Under the pieces are notes generated by a model. It was not told the origin of the DNA, ran no database searches, and worked only from the letters and a program-made list of their open reading frames with translations. A stretch of 21,858 nt of DNA from positions 1 to 21,858 of IMG/VR virus record IMGVR_UViG_3300044984_002179; one strand, written 5' to 3'. Of the stretch, positions 1,830 to 21,416 are shown piece after piece. Within the stretch, counting starts at the first letter, position 1. Each line of letters starts with the position of its first letter. A program made the position numbers and the translations under genes. Source of the DNA: a virus.

Positions 1830-2326
1830 TGGCTATCATCTTTGATCCTGCCACACGCCGGATCATTCTCGATACGGTAGCCGCCACCTGGACTGAGATT
1901 TACTCTCGCTGGGTGGATTGGGCTGCACTGTCGGACAATGCCAAGTATGGCATGGTTGTCCGTCAGGTCGGGTCCGATGATCTGGGTGGAGGTCTATCGA
2001 TCCCGCCGTACTACTTCCTTCAGGGGGCATGGCGCGTGCGGCCAATGGAGGCTGACCACGATCTGACGCTGACCGGCAACGGTTTCGTGGAGGGCGGTGG
2101 TACGCCAGTCGTTCGCACGCTTGGGCCGCATCAGGTCAACGTCAATTACACCGTGCCAGTGCAGGCGCAGGGAATCAGTACCAGCGGCTCAAGCGGCCCA
2201 AGTGCTGTCGAAATAGCAGAGGCGATTTGGGCAAAGCAAACTTCCTCGATGTCGGTTGATGGTTCTATCGGGAAATACGTCGCCACAAAACTACTTTCAA
2301 TTCGAAATTATATCGGATTAAAGTAA
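1829..2326 (+). CDS. Small virion structural protein, last of the tail gene block
   Basis: 165 residues, starting at the ATG that overlaps the preceding stop (TAATG). The N-terminus (FDPATRRIILDTVAATWTEI then YSRWVDWA) repeats the TW-x2-IYS-x2-VD pattern of the previous protein, suggesting a shared assembly or docking module. The centre has short hydrophobic beta segments ending in VNVNYTVPVQ. A flexible Ser/Gly stretch then leads to SAVEIAEAIWA and a C-terminal YVATKLLSIRNYIGLK, a helical ending of a type seen in phage tail-associated proteins. The stop codon TAA (2324-2326) overlaps the left half of a dyad, and lysis genes follow. Likely a tail-associated or baseplate protein. Confidence 0.55.
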   Translation: MAIIFDPATRRIILDTVAATWTEIYSRWVDWAALSDNAKYGMVVRQVGSDDLGGGLSIPPYYFLQGAWRVRPMEADHDLTLTGNGFVEGGGTPVVRTLGPHQVNVNYTVPVQAQGISTSGSSGPSAVEIAEAIWAKQTSSMSVDGSIGKYVATKLLSIRNYIGLK

Positions 2327-2339
2327 GTCACGAGTGACT
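2326..2339 (+). promoter_or_regulatory. Dyad copy 1, AGTCA-CGAG-TGACT, perfect
   Basis: Perfect half sites; also extends one base pair inward (AGTCAC..GTGACT). It begins within the stop codon of the last tail gene and lies 23 bases before the holin ATG, so it would control the lysis cassette if it is an operator. Confidence 0.75.
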
Positions 2340-2362
2340 GGACATTTAAACGGATTTGAGCT

Positions 2363-2719
2363 ATGCTCCACAAAACAATTCGGGCAAAAATCATGCAAGA
2401 TAAAGTGTTCTTATTCAGTCAAGTGGAGTGGGCGCATGTTTGGCTTGCTGGCTTGACTGCCATGTGGGGTGGGGCGATTTCTTACTTTCACCGAATTCAA
2501 TCAGGGCTGCCTCACTCTTGGTTGTCCGTACTCGCGCACATGAGCATGTCTGGCTTTGCTGGATTTATGTGTTGGTTGGGTTGCGTTCAATTTGATGTTC
2601 CAGTTCCATTAACCGCGATATGTACCGGGCTTGCTGGTCACATGGGCGCTGAGTTTGTCAAGCTTATCGAGGCTCATTTCTCGAAACGACTTTCAAATGG
2701 CGTATCGGAAATTAAATGA
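2363..2719 (+). CDS. Holin, LydA/phage holin superfamily III type
   Basis: 118 residues. Three hydrophobic segments are visible: about 27-45 (WLAGLTAMWGGAISYF), about 57-75 (LAHMSMSGFAGFMCWLG) and about 80-100, the last containing TAICTGLAGHMGAEFVK, a pattern I associate with the LydA-like holin family (PF16083). Holins accumulate in the inner membrane and open it at a set time to release the endolysin. It lies directly before an endopeptidase with an ATGA overlap, as expected for a lysis cassette. Two possible starts exist, ATG 2363 and ATG 2393, with four basic residues (His, Lys, Arg, Lys) between them, the arrangement that in lambda S gives antiholin and holin. Neither start has a strong ribosome site, so the start is uncertain. 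Confidence 0.75.
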   Translation: MLHKTIRAKIMQDKVFLFSQVEWAHVWLAGLTAMWGGAISYFHRIQSGLPHSWLSVLAHMSMSGFAGFMCWLGCVQFDVPVPLTAICTGLAGHMGAEFVKLIEAHFSKRLSNGVSEIK

Positions 2720-3141
2720 TTACGTCGGCTGAGTATTACAAAGGTCGCGACAAGCAATATGCCTCCGAACTGACGGAAGAAATTCGCAAAAATTCAATCG
2801 AAACAATTCGGCGCGCAAACGCTTTGCTTGAATTGTTTTACGCGACGAATCCCAACGCAAAGCGCGACAGAACCGCAACCTCGGGTTGGCGACCGCCGGC
2901 GGTGAATGCAGCCACCAAAAAAGCGGCGACTAAATCAAAACACATGCTTGGGCTGGCTATTGACATCGGTGATTCAGATGGAAAGTTGGACGCTTGGCTG
3001 ATGACAATAAACGGACAAAGGGCGCTTGAAGTTATTGGCCTTTGGATGGAGCATCCATCAGCAACTCAAGGTTGGTGCCATTTGCAGACGGTTCAAAATA
3101 GAAGTTGGAAAGATGGAAAACCGAGGGTGTTCTATCCATGA
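2716..3141 (+). CDS. Endolysin, M15-family zinc peptidase (L-Ala-D-Glu or D-Ala-D-Ala type endopeptidase)
   Basis: 141 residues, starting at an ATGA overlap with the holin. The M15 pattern is clear: SGWRPPAVN (residues 56-64), then the zinc ligands in KHMLGLAIDIGD, His76 and Asp83 (H-x6-D), and the third ligand His122 in GWCHLQ. Members of this family cleave the peptide stems of peptidoglycan. No signal peptide or cell-wall-binding domain is seen, so it would depend on the holin to reach the wall, and it is a single-domain enzyme of typical size. Placement between holin and spanins supports the lysis role. Confidence 0.88.
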   Translation: MITSAEYYKGRDKQYASELTEEIRKNSIETIRRANALLELFYATNPNAKRDRTATSGWRPPAVNAATKKAATKSKHMLGLAIDIGDSDGKLDAWLMTINGQRALEVIGLWMEHPSATQGWCHLQTVQNRSWKDGKPRVFYP

Positions 3142-3156
3142 GCGCCCGCAACGATT

Positions 3157-3170
3157 AGTCACAGGTGACG
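3157..3170 (+). promoter_or_regulatory. Dyad copy 2, AGTCA-CAGG-TGACG (9 of 10)
   Basis: One mismatch in the right half. It ends one base before ATG 3172 and supplies the only Shine-Dalgarno-like sequence there (AGGTGA, 3163-3168), so a protein bound to DNA or a structure in RNA at this site could affect the second membrane gene of the lysis cassette. Confidence 0.55.
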
Positions 3171-3171
3171 T

Positions 3172-3393
3172 ATGGACAGCGAAAAGCTTATTGAAGTAAT
3201 CCACAAGTCGGTTCGCCCGTTGCTGACCGGCATCATTACGTTGCTATTTAATGGTGTATGTCTTTGGGCGTGGATCGAAGGTCAATTAAATATCAAGGAA
3301 TACATTATGGCTATGGCTCCGGCCAATAGCATGATTCTCGGTTTTTGGTTTGGTGAGCGGGCAGCTTTGAAAACGCCCGGAGAAGCCTCGTGA
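3172..3393 (+). CDS. Small two-segment membrane protein in lysis cassette (holin-like or antiholin candidate)
   Basis: 73 residues with two hydrophobic segments, about 16-36 (RPLLTGIITLLFNGVCLWAW) and about 44-60 (IMAMAPANSMILGFWFG), then a basic tail. The ending SMILGFWFGERAALK resembles the C-terminus of short phage holin-like proteins. It sits between endolysin and the spanin genes, where second holins or antiholins are common. The start ATG 3172 is chosen because AGGTGA lies just upstream, inside dyad copy 2. The stop overlaps the next start (GTGA). Which of the two membrane proteins forms the lethal hole cannot be told from sequence. Confidence 0.6.
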   Translation: MDSEKLIEVIHKSVRPLLTGIITLLFNGVCLWAWIEGQLNIKEYIMAMAPANSMILGFWFGERAALKTPGEAS

Positions 3394-5035: not shown

Positions 5036-5049
5036 TAGGACAAAGAATA

Positions 5050-5063
5050 AGTCACTACTGAGA
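5050..5063 (+). promoter_or_regulatory. Dyad copy 3, AGTCA-CTAC-TGAGA (8 of 10)
   Basis: The left half is perfect within ATAAGTCAC and the right half degenerate; a wider symmetry AGTCAC..GTGATT spans 5050-5069. It lies between the phosphoesterase and PhoH genes, 37 bases before ATG 5101, the only gap in this stretch. Confidence 0.5.
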
Positions 5064-5100
5064 GTGATTTCAGATTCCCACAACCACAGCAGGAAACCAC

Positions 5101-5871
5101 ATGGCTCGCAACAGCGGTAGAAAATTTCCCAAACGTCAACGCGGCAACGACACGTATGAGGAAATGGATCAAATTCCGGACAGAGTTGAATATCAGCAGG
5201 TAAAGCGAAGCACTTCGCCTCTCAAGCCCCTCAACGACGCGCAGGGGCGCTATCTTGACGCCATGAAGACGTTTACCCTGACCTTTGCAACCGGTTCAGC
5301 CGGCACCGGCAAAACATGGTTGTGCGCAGCCCTAGCGGCTCAAATGCTTGAGAGTGGGCAAATCAACAAGATCATCATCACCCGACCGGCGGTAGAGGCG
5401 GGCGAATCACTGGGTTTCCTGCCTGGCGAAATCGAAGAAAAATTCGATCCGTACTTGCAACCGTTCCGCGACGTTCTGAACGAGCGCTTGGGTAAGACCC
5501 ATGTGGAATATTTGGTCAAGCGCGGCGTGATTGAAGCGGCACCGCTGGCGTACATGCGGGGCAAGACGTTCAAGAACGCCTTCGTAATTCTGGACGAAGG
5601 TCAAAATACCACGCCGAGCCAAATGAAGATGTTTCTGACCCGTATCGGACACGACTGCAAGGTGGTTGTGAACGGCGACATCAGTCAGAAGGACATCATG
5701 GGCAAGTCTGGGCTTGATGATGCCGTGGAACGACTGTCTTGGATTCCGTCAATCAAGCACATCGAGTTCACCCGTTCCGACGTTGTTCGCAGCGGTTTGT
5801 GCCAAGAAATCGTGCAAGCGTATGAAGATGGCCCGGTCATCCCGCGTCGTCGGGGTGTCTCTATCGGGTAA
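5101..5871 (+). CDS. phoH: PhoH-like ATPase
   Basis: 256 residues with AGGAAA upstream of ATG 5101. The first 40 residues are basic and polar (RKFPKRQRGN). A P-loop ATPase domain follows: Walker A G65-SAGTGK-T72, the PhoH-typical ITRPAVEAGESLGFLPG-type stretch (residues about 97-114, ITRPAVEAGE then SLGFLPG), and Walker B VILDEGQN with D165-E166. The VNGDISQKD segment is the usual sensor region. PhoH proteins are RNA/DNA-dependent ATPases with helicase-like folds and are very common in phages, but their role in infection is not settled. It has its own intergenic dyad upstream and is followed by a likely promoter region. Confidence 0.93.
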   Translation: MARNSGRKFPKRQRGNDTYEEMDQIPDRVEYQQVKRSTSPLKPLNDAQGRYLDAMKTFTLTFATGSAGTGKTWLCAALAAQMLESGQINKIIITRPAVEAGESLGFLPGEIEEKFDPYLQPFRDVLNERLGKTHVEYLVKRGVIEAAPLAYMRGKTFKNAFVILDEGQNTTPSQMKMFLTRIGHDCKVVVNGDISQKDIMGKSGLDDAVERLSWIPSIKHIEFTRSDVVRSGLCQEIVQAYEDGPVIPRRRGVSIG

Positions 5872-5931
5872 CTTGGGAATCACTTGGGCATTCCGACGCT
5901 TATCGCTATAAGTAAACTGTCTCTATAGTAA

Positions 5932-5949
5932 AGTCACTATTCACTGACT
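5932..5949 (+). promoter_or_regulatory. Dyad copy 4 (variant spacing) with upstream -10-like hexamers
   Basis: AGTCA and TGACT are both perfect but separated by eight bases (CTATTCAC), the only copy with this spacing; an N4 reading gives AGTCA-CTAT-TCACT. Upstream are TTGGGC (5884-5889) with a 17-base gap to TATAAG, and TATAGT (5924-5929) ending just before the dyad. The dyad would lie at or just past a transcription start for the gene at 5962. Confidence 0.55.
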
Positions 5950-5961
5950 ATTGAGCGCGGA

Positions 5962-6690
5962 ATGATCCAACACCCAACATGGCTAGGGAACTTCTACGGA
6001 GGCAGATTCGGCTTCCTGAACTACGAAGTTCTGACGATCCAAAATATCCCTCACAAAGAACTGAAGCCGGAAGCAGGCTTGATGCTGTCGAAGTGGTTCG
6101 ACTATCGCAAGTTGCATCCGATGCAGGCGACCTACTACTTCGTCAAGTGCTACACGGACGCGTATCGCAACTTTTGTAGAAAGGCAGTCAACTTCGAAAC
6201 GGCTGACTATATAAGCTCGATCAAGGGCAAAGATTTTCTCAAGGCGAGAGAGATGCTTTCGTTTTGGCGCTTGCGTCAACTGGTCGATCAAACCGGCATG
6301 AGGTATGACTTTTTCCTAAGCTTTGCGATGTCCTGGTTCTACCGAATGGTCAGCGTCGATGGCAAGGTCTACCCGCCGCGCCCCGCGCATCTACTGAGAA
6401 ACGAGGATCTGATCGCGGAAGTCATGATCGCTTGGGAAGAGCAGTGTTCGGTATCCCTTCAAGTAGCTCGCGACCCCTACTACCGCGTCGTAAACTTCAC
6501 CGGTAGCAAAAATCAGCTTGCGCATGAAGCGTTCGTGATTGGTCAGGCTAAGGCTAGACCTTTCCCCGAATATTCATTGCGGTCTTTGATTTATGAATTT
6601 GACGCCATTCGAATTGAAGAGGCGCTTCGTCGCTTTGATCAGCGTGTAGTTTTGAGTGCGATTCCTCCCGTTGAGGTTTTGCAAGAATAA
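5962..6690 (+). CDS. Hypothetical phage protein, function not recognised
   Basis: 242 residues, ATG 5962 preceded by a weak GAGCGCGGA site. The protein is rich in aromatic and charged residues (FWRLRQLVDQTGMRYDFFLS, FAMSWFYRM, YPPRPAHLLRNEDL) and looks like a soluble, mostly helical globular protein; there is no signal peptide, membrane segment or zinc motif. The pattern DFFLSFAMSWFYRM followed by PPRPAHL gives the impression of a family found in other phages, but I cannot name a function. It stands between PhoH and the Hfq-like gene with dyads on both sides, so it may be its own transcription unit close to the replication genes. Confidence 0.8.
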   Translation: MIQHPTWLGNFYGGRFGFLNYEVLTIQNIPHKELKPEAGLMLSKWFDYRKLHPMQATYYFVKCYTDAYRNFCRKAVNFETADYISSIKGKDFLKAREMLSFWRLRQLVDQTGMRYDFFLSFAMSWFYRMVSVDGKVYPPRPAHLLRNEDLIAEVMIAWEEQCSVSLQVARDPYYRVVNFTGSKNQLAHEAFVIGQAKARPFPEYSLRSLIYEFDAIRIEEALRRFDQRVVLSAIPPVEVLQE

Positions 6691-6703
6691 GTCATTGCTG
6701 ACT
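6690..6703 (+). promoter_or_regulatory. Dyad copy 5, AGTCA-TTGC-TGACT, perfect, abutting TATAGT
   Basis: The left half shares its first A with the TAA stop of the preceding gene, and the right half shares a T with the -10-like TATAGT (6703-6708). TTGCAA (6679-6684) lies 18 bases before that hexamer as a possible -35. If this is a promoter, the dyad fills its spacer; it would drive the Hfq-like, helicase and primase genes. Confidence 0.7.
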
Positions 6704-6746
6704 ATAGTTCAACTGTCGTTTGACACTAACTTTTAGGAGAAGAAAA

Positions 6747-8479: not shown

Positions 8480-9558
8480 TGACCGCCGGTAACGAAGAGC
8501 TTGGCGAGATTCTGGATGAGATTGATATTGAGTCGTGGCTTGACCGCGAAGGTATCAGGTATCGGGTAACTCGCGGCTCCAGAGGCATTCAGTTGAACGT
8601 CAGGGAATGCCCCTGTTGTGGCAATTCGCACTACAAGGTCTTTCTCAATCAGGAGACGGGGCTTGGCAATTGCTTCTCTGGCGACTGCGAGCAGACTTTC
8701 AATAAGTGGAGCTTCATTCGTCACAGTCTTGGGCTGACGAATCGCCAGGTTGTCGAGCATGTCAAGGAGTTTGCGAGAGAGCAGGGTTGGAAGCCGAGAC
8801 GCGTCAAGTCGGCGGCGGTGGATCTGAAAACGAATTTGGTTTTGCCCGAATCGGTTGAGCTGCCGATCGGTAACAAGAACATGAAGTATTTGAACAATCG
8901 CGGAATCAGTGGCGAGATTACCCGCTACTTCAATCTGCGTTATTCGCAAAGCGGCACGTTTAGCTACGTGGGCGAGGACGAGAAGGTTCGAACTCAGTCG
9001 TATGCTAAGCGAATCATCATCCCGGTGTTTGACCTTGACGGCGACCTTGTCAGCTTTCAAGGCAGGGACATTACCGGGCTTGCTGAAAAGAAGTACCTTT
9101 TTCCGCCGGGCTTTGCATCGACAGGCACGCATATTTACAACGCTCATAACGCGCATGGCGTAGAGGACGTTGTAATCGGTGAGGGTGTCTTTGACGTGAT
9201 GGCAATCAAGATTGCGCTCGATGGGCAGAAAGAGCTTCGCGCCATTACGCCGCTCGGGACATTCGGCAAGCACCTTTCACACGGCGATGACGCCAGTCAG
9301 CTTGCGAAGTTGGTGAGGCTTAGAGAGGCTGGACTGAAGCGCGTTACGTTCATGTGGGATGGCGAACCAAAGGCGATAGAAGCAGCGATCGAATCGGCGC
9401 TGCTGCTGCGTAAATATGGCTTTGTCGCCAGAGTCGCAATTTTGCCGAAAGGGCGTGATCCAAATGAGGTTCCGGCGTCGGTTGTGCGGGATGCGTATTG
9501 GAAGGCGACGGCAATTAACGAAGGCAGTGCGGTTCGCTTGCTTTTAGCGAATAAGTAA
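8479..9558 (+). CDS. DNA primase, zinc-finger plus TOPRIM domain
   Basis: 359 residues from GTG 8479, which overlaps the helicase stop and has GAGGA (8467-8471) upstream; ATG 8440 in the same frame would add 13 residues but lies inside the helicase without a ribosome site. An N-terminal zinc-binding segment has C44-P-C46-C47 and C65-x4-C70. The TOPRIM domain shows VVIGEGVFDVMAIK with E235 and a later FMWDGEP with D294, the acidic residues that hold the catalytic metals. The N-terminus SWLDREGIRYRVTRG resembles the helical start of phage primases. It makes RNA primers at the fork together with the helicase. Compared with DnaG it lacks a separate C-terminal helicase-binding domain. Confidence 0.88.
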   Translation: MTAGNEELGEILDEIDIESWLDREGIRYRVTRGSRGIQLNVRECPCCGNSHYKVFLNQETGLGNCFSGDCEQTFNKWSFIRHSLGLTNRQVVEHVKEFAREQGWKPRRVKSAAVDLKTNLVLPESVELPIGNKNMKYLNNRGISGEITRYFNLRYSQSGTFSYVGEDEKVRTQSYAKRIIIPVFDLDGDLVSFQGRDITGLAEKKYLFPPGFASTGTHIYNAHNAHGVEDVVIGEGVFDVMAIKIALDGQKELRAITPLGTFGKHLSHGDDASQLAKLVRLREAGLKRVTFMWDGEPKAIEAAIESALLLRKYGFVARVAILPKGRDPNEVPASVVRDAYWKATAINEGSAVRLLLANK

Positions 9559-9571
9559 GTCAATAATGACT
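9558..9571 (+). promoter_or_regulatory. Dyad copy 6, AGTCA-ATAA-TGACT, perfect, abutting TATACT
   Basis: The first base is the last base of the primase stop codon. TATACT (9571-9576) shares its first T with the right half, the same geometry as copies 5 and 10. No good -35 hexamer is found at 16-18 bases. It precedes a run of small genes leading to DNA ligase. Confidence 0.7.
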
Positions 9572-9623
9572 ATACTTATAGAAGTTAAATTGATTATGCG
9601 CTTGTGCGCTTGGGGGTTATCCG

Positions 9624-11212: not shown

Positions 11213-12600
11213 ATTCCAACGACATTTTTCAACTGATCGAAAACGTCGCTGCGACGGCCAGCAAAAACGAGAAGCAGGCTCTCGTTACGCGGTACATGAA
11301 GGAAGACCTCTTCAAGCGCGTCTGTCAGTACGCCTATGACCCGTTCAAGACCTACGGCATTCGCAAGCGTCCAGAGACGACCCGCGAGAACGGAAACGCC
11401 GAATTTGATCCCGGCACCTGGAATCTTTTGGATGATTTGATCGCCCGTCGCCTTACCGGCAACAACGCAATCGATGCGGTACGCGGTGAAATGACGGCGC
11501 TCTCGAAAGATTCTTCCGAGTTGTTATGGCGGATCATCAGCAAGGATCTTCGCGCCGGCTTCAGCGAGTCCACGATCAACAAGGCGTCGAAAGGGCTGAT
11601 ACCGGACTTCCCCTACATGCGCTGTTCGTTGCCAAAAGACGCAAAGCTGGAAGAGTGGCCGTTCGATTCAATCGGCTGTCTCAGCCAAGAAAAAGCAGAC
11701 GGCATGTTTGCCAACATCGATCATGAAGTTGGCGGGCTTGTGAGTATTCGCAGTCGTCAGGGTTCGGAATTCCCGATTGACAAGTTTCCTCGCATCGTCG
11801 AGGAAGTCAAAAAACGTCTGTATCCGGATCATCAACAACACGGCGAGATTGTCGTTGTTCGCGACGGTGTTGTCTGTAAGCGTGAAATTGGCAACGGCAT
11901 TCTGAACAGCGTGCTGAATGGTGGCGACTTCGCCGAAAACGAATATCCGGTGTATTTGATTTGGGATCAAATTCCACTTGAGTCGGTGGTGACTAAAGGA
12001 AAGTACGACATGCCGTACAGACACCGTCTCGCCAGCGTGATCAGACAGTTAAGCGGTCAGACTGGTGACAGCTTGATGCTGATTCCGACAAAGGTTGTCA
12101 AGTCGCTGGCCGAAGCTTACGCACACGCCGCCGAATTGATGAAGACCGGCAAGGAAGGGTCTGTGGTCAAGAATCCCGAAGGTATTTGGAAGGACGGCAC
12201 CAGCAAGCACCAAGTCAAGCTGAAATTGGAATTCGAAGTCGATCTGGTGGTAATTGGAATCGAATTGGGTCGCATCGGTTCGAAGAATGAAGGAAGGCCG
12301 GGTGCGCTTGCTTGCGAAACGTCGGACGGTAAGCTTCGCACATCTGTTGCCGTGAAGAATGAGGCGATGCGTGACAACGTCGAGAGAGACCCGGAAGATT
12401 GGATCGATCGCATCATTCCGGTGACGGCAAACGACATCATGATGCCTGGCGGCAGCAGCGACTTTCACGCACTGTTCTTGCCGCGTATGACTGAAGCGAA
12501 CTACCGCACGGATAAAACCGAGGCGGACAGTTTGACTCGCGTCTTCAAACAAAAAGACGCCGCGATCTTCGGTAAATCCATCTTGAGCGACGCGCTGTGA
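11209..12600 (+). CDS. ATP-dependent DNA ligase
   Basis: 463 residues. Motif I is present as E-K162-A-D-G-M in SQEKADGMFANI; Lys162 is the residue that would take AMP. Downstream are RQGSEFP (motif Ia region), EIVVVRDGVVCKREIGNG (motif III region), EGSVVKNPEGIWKDGTS (motif IV) and KLKLEFEVD (motif V, the K-x-K pair). The N-terminal 140 residues form a helical region that can embrace DNA. The length is close to T4 ligase (487). It seals Okazaki fragments and other nicks during phage replication. It ends by overlapping the next gene in GTGA. Confidence 0.9.
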   Translation: MNSNDIFQLIENVAATASKNEKQALVTRYMKEDLFKRVCQYAYDPFKTYGIRKRPETTRENGNAEFDPGTWNLLDDLIARRLTGNNAIDAVRGEMTALSKDSSELLWRIISKDLRAGFSESTINKASKGLIPDFPYMRCSLPKDAKLEEWPFDSIGCLSQEKADGMFANIDHEVGGLVSIRSRQGSEFPIDKFPRIVEEVKKRLYPDHQQHGEIVVVRDGVVCKREIGNGILNSVLNGGDFAENEYPVYLIWDQIPLESVVTKGKYDMPYRHRLASVIRQLSGQTGDSLMLIPTKVVKSLAEAYAHAAELMKTGKEGSVVKNPEGIWKDGTSKHQVKLKLEFEVDLVVIGIELGRIGSKNEGRPGALACETSDGKLRTSVAVKNEAMRDNVERDPEDWIDRIIPVTANDIMMPGGSSDFHALFLPRMTEANYRTDKTEADSLTRVFKQKDAAIFGKSILSDAL

Positions 12601-12848
12601 ACCAGGCGGAGTTCGACGCCGTAAAGAGCACCTTCCCCTGGACTGAGCAAGTTCAGGTTATTGGTCCTGGCGGGTTGGTTCGGATGATTGACCGTTACGG
12701 TAGAGAAGTGCCTATCTTTACTATGACTCAGTTCTTGATGTTGATTACAGACAAGATGCAACCGCAACCGCAACCGCAACCGCAACCGCAACCGCAACCG
12801 CAACCGCAACCGCAACCGCAACCGCAAGACGAAACAGTTCCGGGGTGA
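12597..12848 (+). CDS. Small protein with Gln-Pro repeat tail
   Basis: 83 residues from GTG 12597, overlapping the ligase stop; the ribosome site is weak, consistent with translational coupling. Residues 1-53 form a compact head (NQAEFDAVKSTFPWTEQVQV, GPGGLVRMIDRYGREVPIF). Residues 55-77 are (QP)11Q, encoded by the CAACCG repeat, then DETVPG. An extended Gln-Pro rod may act as a spacer or a protein-binding arm. The family is not recognised. Confidence 0.65.
   Translation: MNQAEFDAVKSTFPWTEQVQVIGPGGLVRMIDRYGREVPIFTMTQFLMLITDKMQPQPQPQPQPQPQPQPQPQPQPQDETVPG
12759..12824 (+). repeat. CAACCG hexanucleotide tandem repeat, 11 perfect copies
   Basis: 66 bases of uninterrupted CAACCG followed by CAA. 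The unit length is a multiple of three, so changes in copy number would change only the number of Gln-Pro pairs. No base has drifted in any copy, which suggests recent expansion. Confidence 0.97.
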
Positions 12849-13289: not shown

Positions 13290-13348
13290 GGTAGAGCGTC
13301 TGCCTTACACGCAGAATGTCAGCGGTTCGAGCCCGTTAGCACCCACCA
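13290..13348 (+). other. attP: Probable attP core: 3' part of a tRNA-Val(UAC) gene including CCA
   Basis: 59 bases read as a tRNA from the D-loop end to CCA: GGTAGAGC (13290-13297), anticodon stem TCTGC/GCAGA (13299-13303 with 13311-13315), loop CTTACAC with anticodon TAC (13306-13308, reads GUA, Val), T-stem/loop AGCGG-TTCGAGC-CCGTT, acceptor strand AGCACCC, then ACCA. Upstream there is no GGGTGCT acceptor strand and no proper D-stem, so this is not a working tRNA gene. A 3' tRNA piece directly before an integrase gene is the usual form of a phage attachment site: on integration it would rebuild the host tRNA gene. Confidence 0.85.
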
Positions 13349-13509
13349 GATATTTGTAACAAAATCAAAGACTTAGCGGAAATTCGATAGGTCTGATGAT
13401 TTGTTTGACGCCTTCAACTACACTCTATCCCACTCTAAGACGCTCACAAAAACGTCAAAGACGACCGTATGACATGCCGTTAGGCAGAATGTTGGGAAGG
13501 GGTGGTCAA

Positions 13510-14601
13510 GTGGCATCGAAAAGAGAGAAGGGCCGAGGTTGGGAATTTACGGTCAAGCGGGCGGGCTTGTTGGAGAAGCCGCTGATCTTGACGTTCGCTA
13601 CTGAGGCTGAAGGTGATCTGTTTTGCAAAAACTTGGAATCGTTGCTTGATCGCGGCATTGTGCCGACCGAGTATCGACCCAAGACCCGCGTTGTTTCGTT
13701 CGGCGATTTATCTGGGCAGTATTTGCGAGACGCGCAGGTATCAACAAACGACCGGGAGATTCTGCGCAGCCTGTCAGAAATAGCCAACACGCCGCTTTTG
13801 GCGATCAACGTCGAATGGGTAGACGCACAGGTTCAGCGAATGAAGCGCGAACTACATTACCGACCAGCAACGATTCGAAAGAAGATCGGGGCAATGGCCC
13901 GGTGCTGTGACTGGGGCATTCGACGCAAGTTACTCATTCTGCCAGACGCCCCATTTCGAACGCTGCCAGAAGGTTATGCGGCATACACCGAGACGGATGC
14001 TGCTTTGGCTGGCGGGGCGAAGTCGGACACGGAGCGCGACCGTCGCCTGGAGTCTGGGGAAGAGTTGGAGATTCGCAAAGTGTTGGAGCGCGGGGTTCTG
14101 TCAAGAAAGCAAAGAGAGTTCACCATTCCCAACCGTCAGGACATTGTTGCGCTATTTGAAGTGCTGCTTGAGACCGCCATGCGTTTGCGCGAGGCGTACA
14201 CGCTGACGTCCGATCAAATCGACTTCAAAAGACAAACGATCAATCTGGACAAGACTAAAAATGGAGACAAGCGACAGGTGCCGATGTCCTCTATTGCCGT
14301 CAAGGTGCTGCGACCGTATTCCAAAAAAGATGGGTACATATTCCCGTGGCTAGAAGAGCAGGGCGGCAACCTGAAGCTGACGACGAATTATCTCAGCAAG
14401 ATGTTTGCCCAAGTCTTTGCCGACGCCGGTTGTCCGGATTTGCACACGCATGACTTGCGGCATGAGGCGACGAGTCGCCTATTTGAACGCACAGACTTTA
14501 AGGCGGAAGAGATTATGAAATGCACCGGACACAAGTCGCATCGGATGGTGATGCGCTATCTGAATCTACGCGGTTCCAATCTCGCCGCTAGACTCTGGTA
14601 G
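13510..14601 (+). CDS. int: Tyrosine-family integrase
   Basis: 363 residues from GTG 13510, preferred because AAGGGG (13497-13502) precedes it and because the product then begins MASKREKGRGWEF, a normal start for this family; ATG 13396 in frame adds 38 low-complexity basic residues. All six catalytic residues are visible: R225 (TAMRLREAY), K250 (DKTKNGDKRQVP), H314 and R317 (THDLRHEA), H341 (CTGHKS) and Y350 (MRYLNL). The N-terminal half would hold the arm-binding and core-binding domains. It lies 160 bases after the tRNA-Val fragment, so its target is most likely a host tRNA-Val(UAC) gene. The 3' end overlaps the convergent excisionase-like gene by 14 bases. Confidence 0.93.
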   Translation: MASKREKGRGWEFTVKRAGLLEKPLILTFATEAEGDLFCKNLESLLDRGIVPTEYRPKTRVVSFGDLSGQYLRDAQVSTNDREILRSLSEIANTPLLAINVEWVDAQVQRMKRELHYRPATIRKKIGAMARCCDWGIRRKLLILPDAPFRTLPEGYAAYTETDAALAGGAKSDTERDRRLESGEELEIRKVLERGVLSRKQREFTIPNRQDIVALFEVLLETAMRLREAYTLTSDQIDFKRQTINLDKTKNGDKRQVPMSSIAVKVLRPYSKKDGYIFPWLEEQGGNLKLTTNYLSKMFAQVFADAGCPDLHTHDLRHEATSRLFERTDFKAEEIMKCTGHKSHRMVMRYLNLRGSNLAARLW

Positions 14602-14797
14602 TTCGCCCGATCCCCATTCGTGCGGCGGTCTGCTTCACGATCTGCGACGTGGCGTAACCAATCACATCGCACTCCAACATAACGTAAGCCCTGCCGATTT
14701 TTGCGGCGGGGATGTCGCCAGAATGAATCAGCTTGGCGACCGTGTTGACGTGGACGCACAAAAGCTCGGATGCGCGAAGAATATCCACGGTACTCAT
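14588..14797 (-). CDS. xis: Excisionase-like helix-turn-helix protein (HTH_17 type)
   Basis: 69 residues from the ATG at 14797; an upstream ATG at 14899 would add 34 residues that do not look like part of this family and would run through two dyads. The sequence LRASELLCVHVNTVAKLIHS, GDIPAAKIGRAYVMLECDVI matches the excisionase/MerR-like winged helix (usual form: E-A-A-E-L-L-x-V-S-x-x-T-V-x-x-L-I-x-x-G-x-L-P-A-x-x-I-G). Such proteins bend att DNA and steer the integrase toward excision. It faces the integrase tail to tail and overlaps it by 14 bases, which could allow antisense effects. Two dyad copies lie in its promoter region. No strong ribosome site precedes ATG 14797. Confidence 0.72.
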   Translation of the reverse strand: MSTVDILRASELLCVHVNTVAKLIHSGDIPAAKIGRAYVMLECDVIGYATSQIVKQTAARMGIGRTTRV

Positions 14798-14838
14798 GTT
14801 GAGGCGGGCTTTGTGGTTGATGTCATGGTTGTCCGATA

Positions 14839-14852
14839 AGTCACAGATGAGT
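14839..14852 (-). promoter_or_regulatory. Dyad copy 7, AGTCA-CAGA-TGAGT (9 of 10)
   Basis: One mismatch in the right half. It is 42 bases upstream of the excisionase-like start and 46 bases (centre to centre) from copy 8, so paired binding on nearby faces of the helix is possible. Confidence 0.6.
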
Positions 14853-14884
14853 AATGATGGTATCGGCACATTCAGATAAAAGCA

Positions 14885-14898
14885 AGTCACCAATGACA
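14885..14898 (-). promoter_or_regulatory. Dyad copy 8, AGTCA-CCAA-TGACA (9 of 10)
   Basis: One mismatch at the outer base of the right half. It lies between the terminator of the repressor gene and the excisionase-like gene, as expected if the latter has its own regulated promoter on the minus strand. Confidence 0.6.
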
Positions 14899-14915
14899 TA
14901 TCTACAGACGAAAAA

Positions 14916-14936: not shown

Positions 14937-14956
14937 GGTTATGTGGTGTCGGGTGG

Positions 14957-15379
14957 TTAATTGGTGGCGTTGTCAGGCTTCAGCGTGTTGACAGCGTCAA
15001 CTATTCGCTGCCGCTCATCATCGGTGCGAAGTCGTGGATTGGTGACGTCTGCGCCACGAATAGCCTCAATGATTTCAATTTCGTTCAAGGTCAGCACCGG
15101 CTGGTTGAACATCTTCTGAATCTCATTCCAGGTGTCCGGTTGGTACTCCTGCATACACATTTTGAAGAAGTGAATGGGGTCAATCTCCAACGCCTTCGCT
15201 AGAGGCCCGATCTTTTCCATCGGAATCTTGGTGTCGCCCTTCTTGAACATCGTGATGATGTTCGGCTTGGCGAAACCAGCCTCTAGTGCGATTTGACGTT
15301 GCGGTTTGCCGCATAGATCGATTTGCCAATCGACATACTCAGCAACGGTTTTAACTTTTTGGCGAAAACTTGCGCTCAT
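14957..15379 (-). CDS. XRE/Cro-CI-type transcriptional regulator, probable phage repressor
   Basis: 140 residues from the ATG at 15379, preceded on its strand by AAGGAGAG; an in-frame start at 15424 is less likely. Residues about 5-70 form an HTH_XRE domain: QRQIALEAGFAKPNIITMFK is the helix-turn-helix, followed by GDTKIPMEKIGPLAKALEID. The C-terminal half is helical, without the Ala-Gly and Ser/Lys residues of a LexA-type self-cleaving domain, so induction is probably not by RecA-driven autocleavage. It is the only gene besides the excisionase-like one on the minus strand, is flanked by four dyads, and ends at a terminator. By position and fold it is the best candidate for the lysogeny repressor. 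Confidence 0.82.
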   Translation of the reverse strand: MSASFRQKVKTVAEYVDWQIDLCGKPQRQIALEAGFAKPNIITMFKKGDTKIPMEKIGPLAKALEIDPIHFFKMCMQEYQPDTWNEIQKMFNQPVLTLNEIEIIEAIRGADVTNPRLRTDDERQRIVDAVNTLKPDNATN

Positions 15380-15467
15380 GGTTACTCTCCTTTGTTTCGA
15401 GTAGATTGTGTACAACACAATCATGACAGTTTGCCTATCTGCTGCCCTTGCGTCAGCTCTGAAAATA

Positions 15468-15497
15468 AGTATAGCGCAAAGTCACTAATGCGTTACT
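15468..15497 (-). promoter_or_regulatory. Dyad copy 9 with minus-strand -10, likely repressor promoter
   Basis: The dyad is 15480-15493 (AGTCA-CTAA-TGCGT, 8 of 10). On the minus strand, the perfect half TGACT is followed after six bases by TATACT (15468-15473), close to the arrangement at copy 13. This is the only good -10 within 120 bases of the repressor start. The weak dyad just upstream fits autoregulation. No good -35 is seen. Confidence 0.55.
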
Positions 15498-15602
15498 TTT
15501 TTAAAAAACGCTGTTGGCTTTTTCGATCGCCATCTATTACTAAAGATATATGAGGATGTTGAAGTATTATTTGGATCGACAAAAAAAACCCTATCGTCGG
15601 TA

Positions 15603-15616
15603 AGTCAAAGGTGACT
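15603..15616 (+). promoter_or_regulatory. Dyad copy 10, AGTCA-AAGG-TGACT, perfect, abutting TATACT
   Basis: TATACT (15616-15621) shares a base with the right half, the same geometry as copies 5 and 6, and the following bases (TATACTTGTAG compared with TATACTTATAG at copy 6) are also nearly the same. This would be the first rightward promoter facing away from the repressor. Confidence 0.75.
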
Positions 15617-15672
15617 ATACTTGTAGTGGTTTCTTGACGTTCATCGTTTTATTTACTACAAGGAGAAAGTAA

Positions 15673-15855
15673 ATGTCCGCTGGTTTGTCTTCTAAGTCAG
15701 TCACCTTTGAGGAGGGCGCTGACATACTCGAAAAGTCTGTCGTTGGGGGTCGCTTGGATTTGGGGCACTCGCTTGTTTATGATTTGCTGCATCCCGTTCT
15801 CGGAAGCATTGTACTGTTTTCGTCAACTATTGGCAAAAGCGTTGTCGTTTCGTAG
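15673..15855 (+). CDS. Small hypothetical protein, first rightward gene opposite the repressor
   Basis: 60 residues with AAGGAG (15661-15666 region) upstream of ATG 15673. The sequence is short, mildly acidic and without a recognisable helix-turn-helix (VTFEEGADILEKSVVGGRLD, LGHSLVYDLLHPVLG, SIVLFSSTIGKSVVVS); the end is hydrophobic. It is too unlike Cro to call by sequence. Position, as the first gene downstream of a perfect dyad and divergent from the repressor, is where phages often place antirepressor or cro-type genes. A good ribosome site supports its being real. Confidence 0.55.
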   Translation: MSAGLSSKSVTFEEGADILEKSVVGGRLDLGHSLVYDLLHPVLGSIVLFSSTIGKSVVVS

Positions 15856-15922
15856 TTGAGTACGTCAGGCGGTGTGATTAAGTCGTTGCGCTTCCTGATT
15901 CTTTTTTTTATGATAGCTCATC

Positions 15923-15936
15923 AGTCAATTGTGACT
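15923..15936 (+). promoter_or_regulatory. Dyad copy 11, AGTCA-ATTG-TGACT, perfect, downstream of TATGAT
   Basis: A -10-like TATGAT (15909-15914) precedes the dyad by eight bases, so the dyad would cover the start of transcription. The ribosome site AAGGAG of the vWA gene follows within a few bases. Confidence 0.7.
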
Positions 15937-15951
15937 TACAAGGAGAGCTAA

Positions 15952-17895: not shown

Positions 17896-17910
17896 GGCGG
17901 TATAAAAATA

Positions 17911-17924
17911 AGTCATAAGTGACT
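17911..17924 (+). promoter_or_regulatory. Dyad copy 12, AGTCA-TAAG-TGACT, perfect
   Basis: It lies between the vWA and AAA+ genes, with TATAAA (17901-17906) just upstream and TAATAT (17947-17952) downstream as possible -10 elements. Its presence means that the AAA+ gene can be expressed separately from the vWA gene. Confidence 0.7.
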
Positions 17925-18000
17925 ACTCATTCCTGACTGACATCTGTAATATCTGTTCTGTCGCAGCAAGTGTGCTGCATTGATCATCAAGGAGATTCAA

Positions 18001-19185
18001 ATGAGCGACAAAATCACCTGTAAGCTTTGTGGCGCAATGGTTCACTCCATTCAGGTACACCTGAAGAGCAACCATCCAGAAGAGACAATCGAAGGCTACA
18101 TTCGACAGTTCGGCGAAGATGTGCCTTTGATGTCTGACATGGCGTTGCAAAAGCTTGCCGAGCGTCGCGCTGCAAAAGAAGCCGAGTCAAGTCAGAAGAT
18201 CGAAATGTCCGGTACGAAAGATGAGATTTCCACTTCTAGCGTCATCCCCCAGGATGCGGTCGTCAAGAAGGCGTTTCATGAAGTCTTCAATCTTGGCAAC
18301 GGCAAAGCAGCCAAGTCCGCTAAGGGTGAGGCGATTCCAATCTCTGTCGTAGCAAATCCCGCCATGCCCGACATGGTGCCGACCCTGTCCAATGATTACG
18401 TTTATGACATCGATGAACTCAAGAACGTCATTCTGGCGCTGGAGTTGAACATCCCCTGTTACGTTTGGGGCCACAAGGGTTCGGGCAAGTCTGAGTTGTT
18501 GGAGCAGATCGCCGCTCGTACCGGTCGCCCCTACATGCGGGTTCAACATACGGTCAACACTGAAGAGAGCCATATCGTTGGTCAGTGGACTGTTCGTGAT
18601 GGTCAGACCGTATTCGAGCTTGGCCCACTTCCGTTAGCGATGATTAACGGCTGGATGTACTGCGCCGACGAATACGATTTTTCACTGCCGAGCGTTCTGT
18701 CCGTCTATCAAGCGGTATTGGAGGGTAAGTCACTGGTGATTAAAGAGGCTGACGCCGCTAATCGCATCATCAAACCGTCTCCAAACTTTCGCTTTTGTGG
18801 AACGGGGAACACGAACGGCAGTGGCGATGAGACGGGTCTGTATCAGGGAACGTCAATTCAGAATGCCGCAAACTTCGACCGTTTTGGCGTCGTGATTCAC
18901 AAGCAGTATATGAAGAAAGCGGCAGAGTCTCAGATCCTCGTGAACCGTGTCGGTTTGGTCAAAGAAGATGCGGACAAGATGGTCGATTTCGCCGGGCTGG
19001 TTCGCGAGGCGTATGACGGTGCAAAGATCAGTGATGTGATTTCGCCGCGAACCCTTATCTTCGCCGCAAAGATCGGCGTCAAGCGTGGCAGTTTCCGTCA
19101 GGGCATCGTGCTGTCATTCATCAACAAGCTTTCGAAGGTGGACCGCGAAATTGTCGACGGCTTGGCTCAAAGGGTCTTTGGCTAG
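18001..19185 (+). CDS. MoxR/CobS-like AAA+ ATPase with N-terminal C2H2-type zinc finger
   Basis: 394 residues from ATG 18001, with AAGGAG (17989-17994) six bases upstream. An N-terminal finger has C7-x2-C10-x9-H20-x4-H25 (CKLCGAMVHSIQVHLKSNH). A linker of about 100 residues leads to the AAA+ core: Walker A G157-HKGSGK-S164, HIVGQWTVRDGQTVFELGPL (MoxR-type insert), Walker B MYCADEYDF with D223-E224, sensor 1 CGTGNTNGSGDETG, and ISPRTLI as the sensor 2 region. CobS/MoxR ATPases work as hexamers with a vWA partner to remodel or activate a target, here presumably the 15952 protein. The finger may bring the complex to nucleic acid or a protein. Used in CobNST for cobalt insertion, but no such pathway is seen here. 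Confidence 0.9.
   Translation: MSDKITCKLCGAMVHSIQVHLKSNHPEETIEGYIRQFGEDVPLMSDMALQKLAERRAAKEAESSQKIEMSGTKDEISTSSVIPQDAVVKKAFHEVFNLGNGKAAKSAKGEAIPISVVANPAMPDMVPTLSNDYVYDIDELKNVILALELNIPCYVWGHKGSGKSELLEQIAARTGRPYMRVQHTVNTEESHIVGQWTVRDGQTVFELGPLPLAMINGWMYCADEYDFSLPSVLSVYQAVLEGKSLVIKEADAANRIIKPSPNFRFCGTGNTNGSGDETGLYQGTSIQNAANFDRFGVVIHKQYMKKAAESQILVNRVGLVKEDADKMVDFAGLVREAYDGAKISDVISPRTLIFAAKIGVKRGSFRQGIVLSFINKLSKVDREIVDGLAQRVFG
18728..18741 (+). promoter_or_regulatory. Intragenic dyad-like site, AGTCA-CTGG-TGATT (9 of 10)
   Basis: Inside the AAA+ gene, with TA before and TA after so the outer symmetry is TAAGTCA..TGATTA. No promoter is seen. It may be chance, or a site where bound repressor blocks elongation. 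Confidence 0.3.
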
Positions 19186-19208
19186 TCAGTAGTGACTTAT
19201 GCTATAAT
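19178..19208 (+). promoter_or_regulatory. Dyad copy 13 in an extended -10 promoter for the GIY-YIG gene
   Basis: The dyad is 19184-19197 (AGTCA-GTAG-TGACT, perfect), beginning in the TAG stop of the AAA+ gene. TGC-TATAAT (19200-19208) is a consensus extended -10; TTGGCT (19178-19183) is a possible -35 at 19 bases. The dyad fills the spacer, so a bound dimer would exclude RNA polymerase. Confidence 0.78.
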
Positions 19209-19238
19209 CTAGCACAGCGCAAATCACTTGGAGCCAAC

Positions 19239-20090
19239 ATGAGCCTTAAAGATTCTGGAATTTACTGCATCACGCATATCGCCTCTCAACGACGTTACGT
19301 TGGGAGTGCGGAAAACTTGGAGAGACGCTTCAAAAAACACCTAACGCAACTTCGTAGAGGCGCCCATCACTCCTACAAGCTGCAAGAGGCTTGGGATAAG
19401 TTTGGAGAAGGGGCATTCGAAATGACTGTTGTTATCAGGTGTCCGGTCGAGAAGTTGATGGATCTGGAACAAAAGGTCATTGATAGGTTCGGTGCTGCGA
19501 TTTCTGGATACAACGTGGCGAGCTTCGCAGATTCTCCAAACAAAGGAAAACATCACTCTGAAGAGTCGCTGGCGAAAATGCGGGAGTCACACAAAAAACG
19601 CAAGCCAATCTCGGAAGAAACCAGACAGCGGTTGCGTGACGCGGCGGCTGAACGCGAGCGCATGAAAAAAGAAAGTGGATTTCGCGTTTCGGACGAAACG
19701 AGAGAAAAGCTCGCCGCTGCCGCGACCGGTCGTGAAGTTTCCGAAGAGACTCGGAAGAAGATTGCTGCGGCCAACTCAGGCAAGCCTTTATCTGAAGAAC
19801 ATCGCCGAAAGCTGTCGGACGCTCAAAGGGCGAGAGAGAAAAACTCAGAAGCGGAAGTCGCCGGTCGCATTACCGCCGCTTTGAAAAATAAAGGAAAAGA
19901 GCGATCTGCCGAGTTCAAGGCGCTGATGTCAAGCTTGGCAAGCAACAGGTCTGAAGAACATCAGGCAAAGCTGACGGCTGCGCTTATTGGCAAGTCGCCT
20001 TCGGAAGAGTCGAGGGCAAAAATGTCAGCCTCAAGACGTGCTTATTGTGAGGCGAAAGCCGTCGCAGACTTATGTTTGGAGGGCAAATAA
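19239..20090 (+). CDS. Free-standing GIY-YIG homing endonuclease with NUMOD3-type repeats
   Basis: 283 residues. The catalytic domain opens with G7-I8-Y9 and Y20-V21-G22, followed by R29-R30-F31 and WDKFGEGAFE, which carries the glutamate expected near residue 60. From about residue 100 a short helical unit of the form S-E-E-T/H-R-x-K-L/I-x-A-A-x-x-G/R is repeated at least six times (SEESLAKMRESHKK, SEETRQRLRDA, SDETREKLAAAATG, SEETRKKIAAANSG, SEEHRRKLSDAQ, SEEHQAKLTAALIG, SEESRAKMSAS), the NUMOD3 DNA-binding repeat. Such enzymes cut a rival phage or an uninvaded allele and spread by repair. It is inserted between a transcription unit end and the sigma-like gene, with its own promoter; its stop overlaps the next start. 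Confidence 0.9.
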   Translation: MSLKDSGIYCITHIASQRRYVGSAENLERRFKKHLTQLRRGAHHSYKLQEAWDKFGEGAFEMTVVIRCPVEKLMDLEQKVIDRFGAAISGYNVASFADSPNKGKHHSEESLAKMRESHKKRKPISEETRQRLRDAAAERERMKKESGFRVSDETREKLAAAATGREVSEETRKKIAAANSGKPLSEEHRRKLSDAQRAREKNSEAEVAGRITAALKNKGKERSAEFKALMSSLASNRSEEHQAKLTAALIGKSPSEESRAKMSASRRAYCEAKAVADLCLEGK

Positions 20091-20743
20091 TGGAGCGACA
20101 GGGCTTAGACCGCTACTACGCGGATAACGTTGGGCTGATTCACTCGGTTGCCCGAAAGGGCTTCCGAAGACTTCAAGCGATTGGCGCGATAACGGATTAC
20201 GACGATCTGGTTCAGGAGTTGGCCGTCACTTTCATCAAGTCCTATGATCTTTTTGATGAAAGCAAAGGCGCTTTTTCCACGTACTTTGTTCGATCCGCCT
20301 TCAACAAGGTGAACCGTATCGCCGAAGCGCATGAGATTGAGCGCTTGGAACTTCGCATTCGCTCGGTTGAGGAAATGTCCTCATGGCAAGAAGACGGTGA
20401 GATGTCTGTCGAAGAAACCATCGCCGGAAACGAGCCGACGCCGGCGCAGCACTATGAGGCGAAAAATGTGCGCTTGGGGATTCTCGATGCGCTGTCGCCT
20501 GTAGCTGAAATGATTGTCGAGATGGCGATCGATCCACCTGACTTTATCGAGCGGGAGTTTGCCGCACAGGTCGCTCACGCCGAGTTTGCAAGAAGCAATG
20601 GCGTTGAAAAACGTTCGCGTGGCTCGCTCAACGTGGCGTTCGTTTGTTCCGTTTTGGAGCGCACCACCGAACTGTCGTCTTCAATTTTGAGAGCGGCAAA
20701 GTTGGAAGTTCTTTCTGCTGCCGAGAGGTTAAAAAATGATTGA
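20090..20743 (+). CDS. Sigma-70 region 2-like protein
   Basis: 217 residues from ATG 20090, chosen because GGAGGG (20078-20083) precedes it and it overlaps the stop of the endonuclease gene (TAATG); ATG 20072 is less likely. Residues about 8-78 follow sigma region 2: NVGLIHSVARKGFRRL, DYDDLVQELAVTFIKSYDLF, DESKGAFSTYFVRSAFNKVNR, with the DDL-x-QE and FD-x-x-KG-x-FSTY core that binds the polymerase clamp and the -10 element. No region 4 helix-turn-helix is recognised in the C-terminal half, which is helical and Ala/Glu-rich. It could be a phage sigma factor that reads only the -10 region, or a protein that modifies host polymerase. It overlaps the next gene by eight bases. Confidence 0.75.
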   Translation: MERQGLDRYYADNVGLIHSVARKGFRRLQAIGAITDYDDLVQELAVTFIKSYDLFDESKGAFSTYFVRSAFNKVNRIAEAHEIERLELRIRSVEEMSSWQEDGEMSVEETIAGNEPTPAQHYEAKNVRLGILDALSPVAEMIVEMAIDPPDFIEREFAAQVAHAEFARSNGVEKRSRGSLNVAFVCSVLERTTELSSSILRAAKLEVLSAAERLKND

Positions 20744-21389
20744 TGCTCCGTTCGATGCGCCGGCGTGTTTTGCTGCCGCCAGCGTATTTAGCCACGACTC
20801 TGATATTTGCAAGATGTGTTCGGCGTTTGAAGGTTGTGCGGCGGCTTCCGTCGTCACGCTTGAGACGATAAAGGGCATTGTGAATGTGGAGGATCTTCTG
20901 AAAAGACACACTAAGGCGAAGAAGATCGCTCGGGTAACGGTCGCGGCGAAAGACAAGCTAGAAGCTGAAACGCGACCGCCAGGCGCAAACCTAAGACCTT
21001 TGATGCTGCCGGTTGAGCGCCAAACGAAAGTGATTCAAGTGAAATTCGAATTGACGGAAGAAGAGCGATTGATTGTTGAGAAGCTGCCAGTCAAGTTAGT
21101 CAAGTTGGCGCCGAGTCTGATCGAACATGGTTTGATTGATCGCATGAAAAAAGACATACCCGAAGGGCGCAACACGTTCGCTACACGAGGTCCGCAATGG
21201 TTACGGGTAGCACTGACAGCGCTGCTCGCTGGAGGCTTCACTAAACCGTCTCTACGCGACTCTATGATGTCCGAGTTCACCTGGACGAGCGGAACGGCGG
21301 CATCGCACGTCAGCATGGTTTGTTCCATCTTCACAGCGTTTGGAATCACAAAAATTGTCGATGGGAAGATGGTTCCTGCGACCGCTTGA
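20736..21389 (+). CDS. Four-cysteine-motif hypothetical protein
   Basis: 217 residues; AGAGG precedes ATG 20736, which overlaps the sigma-like gene. The N-terminus shows C11-x13-C25-x2-C28-x5-C34 (SDICKMCSAFEGC), a compact pattern seen in zinc- or iron-sulfur-binding phage proteins. The middle has a Lys/Thr/Val-rich segment, and the C-terminal 110 residues (from KFELTEEERLIVEKLPVKLV onward) look like a mixed helical domain ending in a possible winged helix (MVCSIFTAFGITKIVDGKMV). I cannot name the family. Being next to the sigma-like and polymerase genes, a DNA- or polymerase-binding role is possible. Confidence 0.65.
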   Translation: MIDAPFDAPACFAAASVFSHDSDICKMCSAFEGCAAASVVTLETIKGIVNVEDLLKRHTKAKKIARVTVAAKDKLEAETRPPGANLRPLMLPVERQTKVIQVKFELTEEERLIVEKLPVKLVKLAPSLIEHGLIDRMKKDIPEGRNTFATRGPQWLRVALTALLAGGFTKPSLRDSMMSEFTWTSGTAASHVSMVCSIFTAFGITKIVDGKMVPATA

Positions 21390-21402
21390 TACAATACAGA
21401 TC

Positions 21403-21416
21403 AGTCATTAGTGAAG
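21403..21416 (+). promoter_or_regulatory. Dyad copy 14, AGTCA-TTAG-TGAAG (8 of 10), upstream of dnaE
   Basis: The left half is perfect. TACAAT (21390-21395) precedes it as a possible -10, so the dyad would lie at the start of transcription, and the right half runs into the AAGGA ribosome site (21414-21418) of the polymerase gene. Confidence 0.55.

Follow-up and report, generated by a model that had tools for sequence, protein, structure and literature searches.

The virus record IMGVR_UViG_3300044984_002179, analysed here over 21,858 bp (the window), contains many copies of a 14-bp dyad, AGTCA-N4-TGACT. From sequence comparison, these dyads are very probably symmetric operators, dispersed over the genome and read by a lysogeny repressor that the phage itself encodes, the XRE protein at 14957-15379. 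An operator set read by this protein had been proposed in an earlier note on the window, and the comparison with relatives supports it. The dyads co-occur with XRE orthologues and are absent from two XRE-less relatives, the half-site changes together with XRE, and the dyads lie over core promoter elements at variable spacing, also before the XRE gene. An XRE dimer would read the two AGTCA half-sites, 14 bp in all. At many lytic promoters, and at XRE's own, the bound dimer would sit on the -35/-10 spacer, the -35 edge or the start region. In this way a single protein could silence, in the prophage, genes for the holin, replication, CobT/CobS-like proteins, polymerase and excision.

Number and placement of the dyads

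Allowing up to two mismatches, the motif occurs at 30 places in the window, against a mean of 8.68 in 100 shuffles (standard deviation 2.97, maximum 17). A motif scan returned all fourteen coordinates given in the earlier note, and the seven copies called perfect there are perfect. The other seven have one mismatch (3157, 5932, 14839, 14885) or two (5050, 15480, 21403). The copy at 5932, described before as a spacing variant, does have perfect halves with an N8 spacer (5932-5949), and can equally be read as N4 with one mismatch (5932-5945). A fifteenth, previously unlisted gap copy with one mismatch lies at 17925, adjoining that at 17911.

Placement was judged by a hand-made gene list that leaves 1403 of the 21,858 bases (6.4%) non-coding, and a copy was counted as non-coding if at least 8 of its 14 bases were so. 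All 7 perfect copies are non-coding (binomial P = 4e-9), as are 5 of 7 one-mismatch copies (P = 2e-5; the two within genes are at 11981 and 18728) and 3 of 16 two-mismatch copies (P = 0.08); as a group, the two-mismatch copies are not significantly placed in gaps. If the excisionase gene xis starts at 14899, the longest possible reading, instead of 14797, the copies at 14839 and 14885 fall inside the gene, which leaves 3 of 7 one-mismatch copies non-coding. Of the perfect copies, three are entirely intergenic, and those at 2326, 6690, 9558 and 19184 share 1-2 bases with the stop codon of the preceding gene. When the gaps are joined end to end, the sequence contains 5 perfect matches (3 real, 2 created across joints), compared with 0 in 300 shuffles of it.

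A 69,167-bp record represents the same virus (99.93% identity over the whole window) and contains 21 perfect dyads, 18 of them non-coding by a greedy open reading frame (ORF) call under which 10.7% of the record is non-coding. The earlier note had named equal frequency inside genes as evidence against operators; this was found neither in the window (7 of 7 perfect copies non-coding) nor in the longer record.

Dyads and XRE across relatives

We ranked all 5-mer dyads with gaps of 0-12 and at least 4 copies in each family record by observed over (expected + 0.3). AGTCA-N4-TGACT heads the list for the 69-kb record, with 21 copies against 0.17 expected, and likewise for G002-G006, G010, G022, G027, G030, G031, G033, G034 and G036. 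Dyads of the AGTAA/TAAGT type lead in X66, G016, G021, G023 and Cyrano, AGTCA with N8 in RHEph10, and AATCA/TCAAT types in G028 and G029, while in pJN2-26 a TAAGT dyad is second behind an unrelated one. Among XRE-bearing records of at least 60 kb, AGTCA or a kindred dyad is top in 22 of 23 and second in one (pJN2-26). Thirteen records of 69-118 kb have 12-34 perfect copies each; in these records, where 5.5-13.3% of the sequence is non-coding, 167 of 248 perfect copies are non-coding. A full-length scan of the XRE-less relatives ANB28 (108 kb) and hairong (113 kb) yielded no AGTxA-N4-TxACT at all.

A tblastn search (E 1e-3) gave XRE homologues in 879 plasmid records, and in 419 the match spans at least 80% of the XRE length; phage-plasmid status was not established record by record for these 879.

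Half-site change with the XRE protein

Two Acinetobacter baumannii plasmids are sisters (SH-aLRT, i.e. approximate likelihood ratio, support of 100) on a tree of CobS, CobT, helicase and primase, made by a quick method with SH-aLRT as its sole support, and their XREs differ. The plasmid whose XRE has R-P-N before helix 3 contains 22 perfect AGTCA dyads, with 47 C to 3 A at half-site position 4. The one with N-Q-N contains AGTAA dyads, with 0 C to 23 A, plus 4 T and 1 G. For A versus C at this position Fisher's test gives 4.6e-16; the scan covered 90 of 107 kb and 89 of 113 kb.

The residue before helix 3 was also compared with the half-site across records with at least six A+C letters. The smoothed A-fraction ranges from 0.19 to 0.95 with N (9 records) and from 0.01 to 0.50 with K/R (23 records; P = 2.8e-5). 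RHEph10 and the Aeromonas record (Q at this place) and G008 (no XRE) stand outside this comparison. For the XRE of A. baumannii CP059475, whose turn lacks one residue, the alignment gives Q in the K column; we counted it as N by hand, and neither letter makes it K/R. G001 (a near-copy of the window) and L128 (a near-copy of X66) were dropped from the column scan, the tree pairs and the residue test, and L106 and L112 likewise as presumably redundant. The 9 versus 23 version includes L023 (K, 3 A to 3 C) and L103 (K, 5 C to 1 A) and omits L112 (K, 0 A to 12 C). Without L023 and L103 but with L112 the test gives P = 1.1e-5 (9 versus 22), thinned by hand P = 2.9e-4 (7 versus 16), and minus the Acinetobacter pair P = 8e-5 (8 versus 22).

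A tree of XRE alone was weakly resolved, with one supported independent pair, and for this reason the four-protein tree was used. On its supported branches the residue changes at least 5 times. Of five independent pairs, too few for a level of 0.05, four go as predicted, none against, and one shows no difference.

The XRE protein itself (minus strand, 140 amino acids; phrog_8 transcriptional regulator, 2e-6), the proposed reader of the dyads, was modelled by AlphaFold2 with a predicted local distance difference test (pLDDT) score of 91.4 and helices at 12-23, 27-33, 40-47, 54-63 and 68-79. P22 C2, 434 Cro and DdrO are among the best matches of the model, with a best Foldseek E of just 2.9e-3; the fold aligns to 2r1j (Z 9.3, 66 residues, 2.2 Å) and to 2cro (Z 8.8, 64 residues). 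The model suggests a Cro/C1-type helix-turn-helix (HTH) fold with a third helix, although for a helical fold Z values of 8-10 are modest. XRE matched no Pfam family at E 0.01 and no PDB sequence at E 1. K38 and P39, of which K38 may take part in the choice of half-site, stand directly before helix 3, and the first residue of this helix, N40, is invariant in 31 aligned sequences. According to the available part of PMC9928086, the orthologue in Cyrano, CYRAN_45, is annotated as a putative repressor, and its transcription in the lysogen is 10-fold over local background.

Genes served by the dyads

To assign dyads to genes we looked for AGTMA-N4-TKACT with at most one mismatch in the interval from 200 bp upstream to 120 bp downstream of the open start of the ORF, leaving out seven records (G001, L128, L106, Lichenihabitans, hairong, ANB28 and SSU5). 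A dyad stands at CobS in 44 of 47 records, at XRE in 30 of 48, at CobT in 26 of 48 and at PhoH in 17 of 32. The corresponding numbers for three scrambled dyads are 0-2, 0-2, 0-3 and 0-4. Holin (4 of 4), helicase (9 of 43) and ligase (6 of 43) genes have dyads as well. The common targets of the dyads are CobS, XRE, CobT and PhoH; primase and polymerase are at control level.

Observations at odds with an XRE-read operator set

Several results weigh against dyads read by XRE. The first concern co-occurrence. SSU5 (100 of 103 kb scanned) has no XRE hit and yet eight copies of TAAGT-N4-ACTTA, and G008 has dyads without an XRE hit, its contig starting about 2.4 kb before CobS, so that the locus is cut. 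The converse, XRE homologues without an AGTxA dyad, was found in a Lichenihabitans plasmid stretch (34 kb, no phage genes annotated) and in the scanned stretches of L116 (17 kb), L107 (9 kb) and L108 (12 kb), and in the XRE-bearing G020 (52 kb) no dyad of the AGTCA kind is enriched. Second, the dyads at primase (3 of 43 records) and polymerase III alpha (1 of 44) are not conserved in the family. Third, in an unguided column scan the K column of XRE reached an adjusted R2 of 0.54, second of its 140 columns, and columns of CobS (0.55) and CobT (0.63) do as well or better, so that the K/R-versus-N test on its own is confounded by relatedness. Finally, G016 and L023 carry K and yet have A-fractions of 0.31 and 0.50, and G028 and G029 have K before helix 3 but AATCA-type dyads; the change at half-site position 2 in these two seems to go via some other residue.

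We read the SSU5 dyads as possible relic operators after a recent loss of XRE; SSU5 looks like a virulent derivative. Regarding the confounded residue test, the A. baumannii pair and the XRE-less relatives weigh more than the test across records.

Some further features of the enteric SSU5-type phages were noted. From tRNA-Asn to CobT, SSU5 (L081) has neither an integrase nor an XRE annotated; SSU5_116 and SSU5_121 are its other annotated repressor-like genes. A second dispersed palindrome, AAACAA-N1-TTGTTT, is present in 9-11 copies per phage (Cyrano, L074-L076; SSU5, L081-L082; pJN2-26, L085-L086), in Cyrano mostly about 25-50 bp upstream of annotated starts. This may be a second operator set.

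Promoter geometry and alternative readers

As the earlier note had described, -10-like hexamers stand beside dyads in the window. Three perfect copies are fused to such a hexamer: that at 6690-6703 (TATAGT, 6703-6708) overlaps a stop codon and precedes the helicase-primase genes, that at 9558-9571 (TATACT, 9571-9576) overlaps the stop codon of primase, and that at 15603-15616 (TATACT, 15616-15621) marks a rightward promoter divergent from XRE. At 19184-19197 the perfect dyad is followed 5 bp on by TATAAT (19203-19208) and precedes the GIY-YIG gene. TATAGT (5924-5929) lies upstream of the copy at 5932. The two-mismatch copy at 15480-15493 is located 6 bp before a minus-strand TATACT (15473-15468), the candidate promoter of the XRE gene; such a weaker copy at the XRE promoter, with a perfect one at the divergent promoter, would be expected of an autoregulated repressor.

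The remaining perfect dyads lie before the holin gene (2326-2339, overlapping the stop of the gene at 1829-2326; phrog_785, PF16083), the CobT/VWA gene (15923-15936) and the CobS/MoxR-like gene (17911-17924, abutted by the one-mismatch copy at 17925-17938). Downstream of the first follow TGGACA (2339-2344), 17 bp and TATGCT (2362-2367). One-mismatch copies are found immediately ahead of a small gene at 3172 (3157-3170) and, if xis starts at 14797, upstream of xis (14839-14852 and 14885-14898). Two-mismatch copies lie ahead of phoH at 5101 (5050-5063; PF02562) and, with TACAAT upstream, directly ahead of the DNA polymerase III alpha gene (21403-21416).

In a set of 162 oriented non-coding copies (18 records), 34 have a -10-like hexamer that starts at +6/+7 from the dyad centre, so that the dyad falls in the -35/-10 spacer, and 15 have one at +29, with the dyad at -35; further hexamers lie upstream. 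The median distance from dyad end to called start is 32 bases. On the opposite strand, 22 hexamer hits at offset -10 correspond, by our reading, to the TGACTATA flank in reverse (TATAGTCA). The forward strand has just 5 hits at this offset, and this lopsided flank favours a real -10 box, while an extended palindrome around the dyad is possible instead. The variable spacing speaks for repression, because it is compatible with steric repression but not with a sigma element or strict activator.

It is rather unlikely that XRE activates some promoters, alone or besides repressing, via copies centred near -41. The +29 class puts the dyad there, the place of class II activators. In the larger class, however, the dyad is in the spacer from -35 to -10, and a dimer bound there would block; several of the -41 cases are alike in sequence by eye, perhaps one orthologous promoter, probably that of CobS, counted once in each of several genomes.

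The earlier note's alternative, a promoter element of a phage-altered polymerase, is improbable. A candidate reader would be the sigma-70 region 2-like protein of the window (plus strand, 20090-20743; PF04542, 2.7e-7); 37 of 56 records have such a sigma-like gene, and the recurrence of hexamers at +6/+7 and +29 would suit a promoter element; of the 34 sites at +6/+7, just 10 have a -35 match of at least 4/6 (control 16%). Yet the spacing between dyad and -10 box varies (upstream, fused, +6, +29), and perfect symmetry fits a dimer and does not fit a sigma factor. In addition, Cyrano and pJN2-26 have dyads but no gene annotated between CobS and polymerase III alpha, the usual place of sigma. A search for sigma homologues in these two gave no hit at E 10, but it also missed the annotated sigma gene of X66, and so leaves an absence of sigma elsewhere in the two genomes unproven. 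ANB28, conversely, has a sigma homologue (3.9e-8) without the dyad. These three elements break the pairing of sigma and dyad and disfavour the alternative, if less firmly.

That the dyads are sites of a host transcription factor is very improbable. Host-factor sites are common on phages and plasmids in general; however, the two plasmids of one host species, A. baumannii, combine two XREs with two half-sites, which makes the host an unlikely reader, and elements from Methylobacterium and from Acinetobacter use the identical AGTCA dyad. Equally implausible are RNA hairpins with a 5-bp stem and a 4-base loop, acting as terminators or as translational or processing signals: the dyads do lie close behind stop codons and ahead of start codons, but several precede a -10-like box or overlap with one and hence fall outside that transcript, G-U pairs occur in just 13 of 104 one-mismatch non-coding copies (11 records, strand read), at or below the sixth that we reckon to be expected, and Rfam has no match in the window. 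Mismatches in these 104 copies avoid half-site positions 3 and 5 (three each).

Comparison with known repressor systems

The 434 and P22 repressors have the Cro/C1-type HTH fold that the model suggests for XRE. The operator of 434 is likewise 14 bp in size, but lambdoid phages have a small number of operators, clustered together, rather than tens across the genome. The repressor of phiC31 reads conserved inverted repeats and may be a further likeness. The operators of KorA and KorB of IncP-1, a conjugative plasmid and not a phage, are palindromic and multi-copy, a likeness to the XRE system by description alone. This network of global repressors controls the plasmid (PMC4889941, available part).

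The earlier note had compared the window to P1 C1 and L5. The comparison holds for working through dispersed sites and fails for the type of site. In the available part of PMC8546580, P1 C1 is one phage repressor with 22 dispersed operators on a phage-plasmid and silences the lytic genes; its operator, in contrast to the 14-bp dyad of the window, is a 17-bp asymmetric site, and the likeness is one of working alone. The L5 repressor has >20 sites genome-wide, in promoters and short intergenic spaces, according to the available part of PMC9283540. These are asymmetric, orientation-bound 13-mers with a predicted monomer reader, whereas the site of the window is symmetric. Stoperators are asymmetric and oriented with transcription, and the perfect dyads of the window are not of this kind. 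In 13 records, the dyads do occur as dispersed operators would, in many copies over the whole genome and in gaps.

Among the matches listed in literature searches on phage-plasmids and SSU5, P1, pHCM2 and stoperator repressors, which leave subscription journals mostly uncovered, no report of an AGTCA operator set was found. As far as the available parts of a phage-plasmid typing paper (PMC12977533) and a review (PMC11652158) go, no operator is named for SSU5-type elements, and the word 'operator' occurs in neither main text.

More tentatively, and less likely than not, the dyads may belong to an evolving immunity code of the whole family, in which one XRE family has some ten to thirty-five symmetric operators per element, a residue toggle and a possible dual role. 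Phage-plasmids of alpha- and gammaproteobacteria and their integrating cousins, perhaps hundreds, would share this repressor family. The residue before helix 3 would mainly toggle specificity (K/R for AGTCA, N admitting AGTAA) and the operators would shift along; XRE would repress from the -35/-10 spacer and might activate some promoters from -41. If true, such a code predicts which elements are mutually exclusive, irrespective of the integration or plasmid module that they carry. With a readable operator, immunity groups could be assigned from sequence alone, and the operator set would account for the silencing of a 100-kb genome by one small protein. The family would then be a natural experiment on the co-evolution of tens of operators with their repressor. 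One prediction is that lysogens of its relatives still block SSU5, which has the sites but lacks XRE.

Gene content, lineage and integration

The window also encodes a DnaB-like helicase, a primase, an ATP-dependent ligase, a CobT-like VWA and a CobS-like AAA protein and a GIY-YIG protein; its PHP-domain protein was taken as DNA polymerase III alpha. The order helicase, primase, ligase, lysogeny module, XRE, CobT, CobS, polymerase III alpha is that of Cyrano, X66 and RHEph10, and gene content and order place the window in the SSU5-type phage-plasmid lineage. The first gene of this row is phoH in the window and in X66 and RHEph10, both Rhizobium phages; phoH is unannotated in the Cyrano stretch examined. 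The XRE gene of the Rhizobium phages is on the opposite strand.

The lysogeny module of the window consists of a tyrosine integrase (plus strand, 13471-14601; PF00589, phrog_1) and an excisionase-like HTH_17 protein (minus strand, 14588-14797; phrog_1840, PF12728). Before the integrase, at about 13290-13348, a stretch with CCA resembles the 3' end of a tRNA by eye and is a likely attachment site; ARAGORN found no complete tRNA there. With integrase, xis and this tRNA-like 3' end, this member of the lineage probably integrates. No plasmid replication or partition genes were found in the window or in the 69-kb record, which is incomplete and in which terminase is likewise unmatched. Beside XRE, relatives have a window-like integrase (G006, G034, G036), ParA (G002, G003, G004) or RepC (G029, G030, G031, G033). 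The module next to XRE thus swaps among relatives, and XRE and the dyads are retained.

A small gene lies between XRE and CobT in the window (plus strand, 15673-15855) and in 7 relatives. Its products of 60-82 amino acids are weakly alike in their C-terminal halves and are candidates for a Cro-like or antirepressor protein; the window copy has no PHROG match. At 12760-12830, at the end of the ORF at 12597-12848, a short in-frame repeat encodes (Pro-Gln)n.

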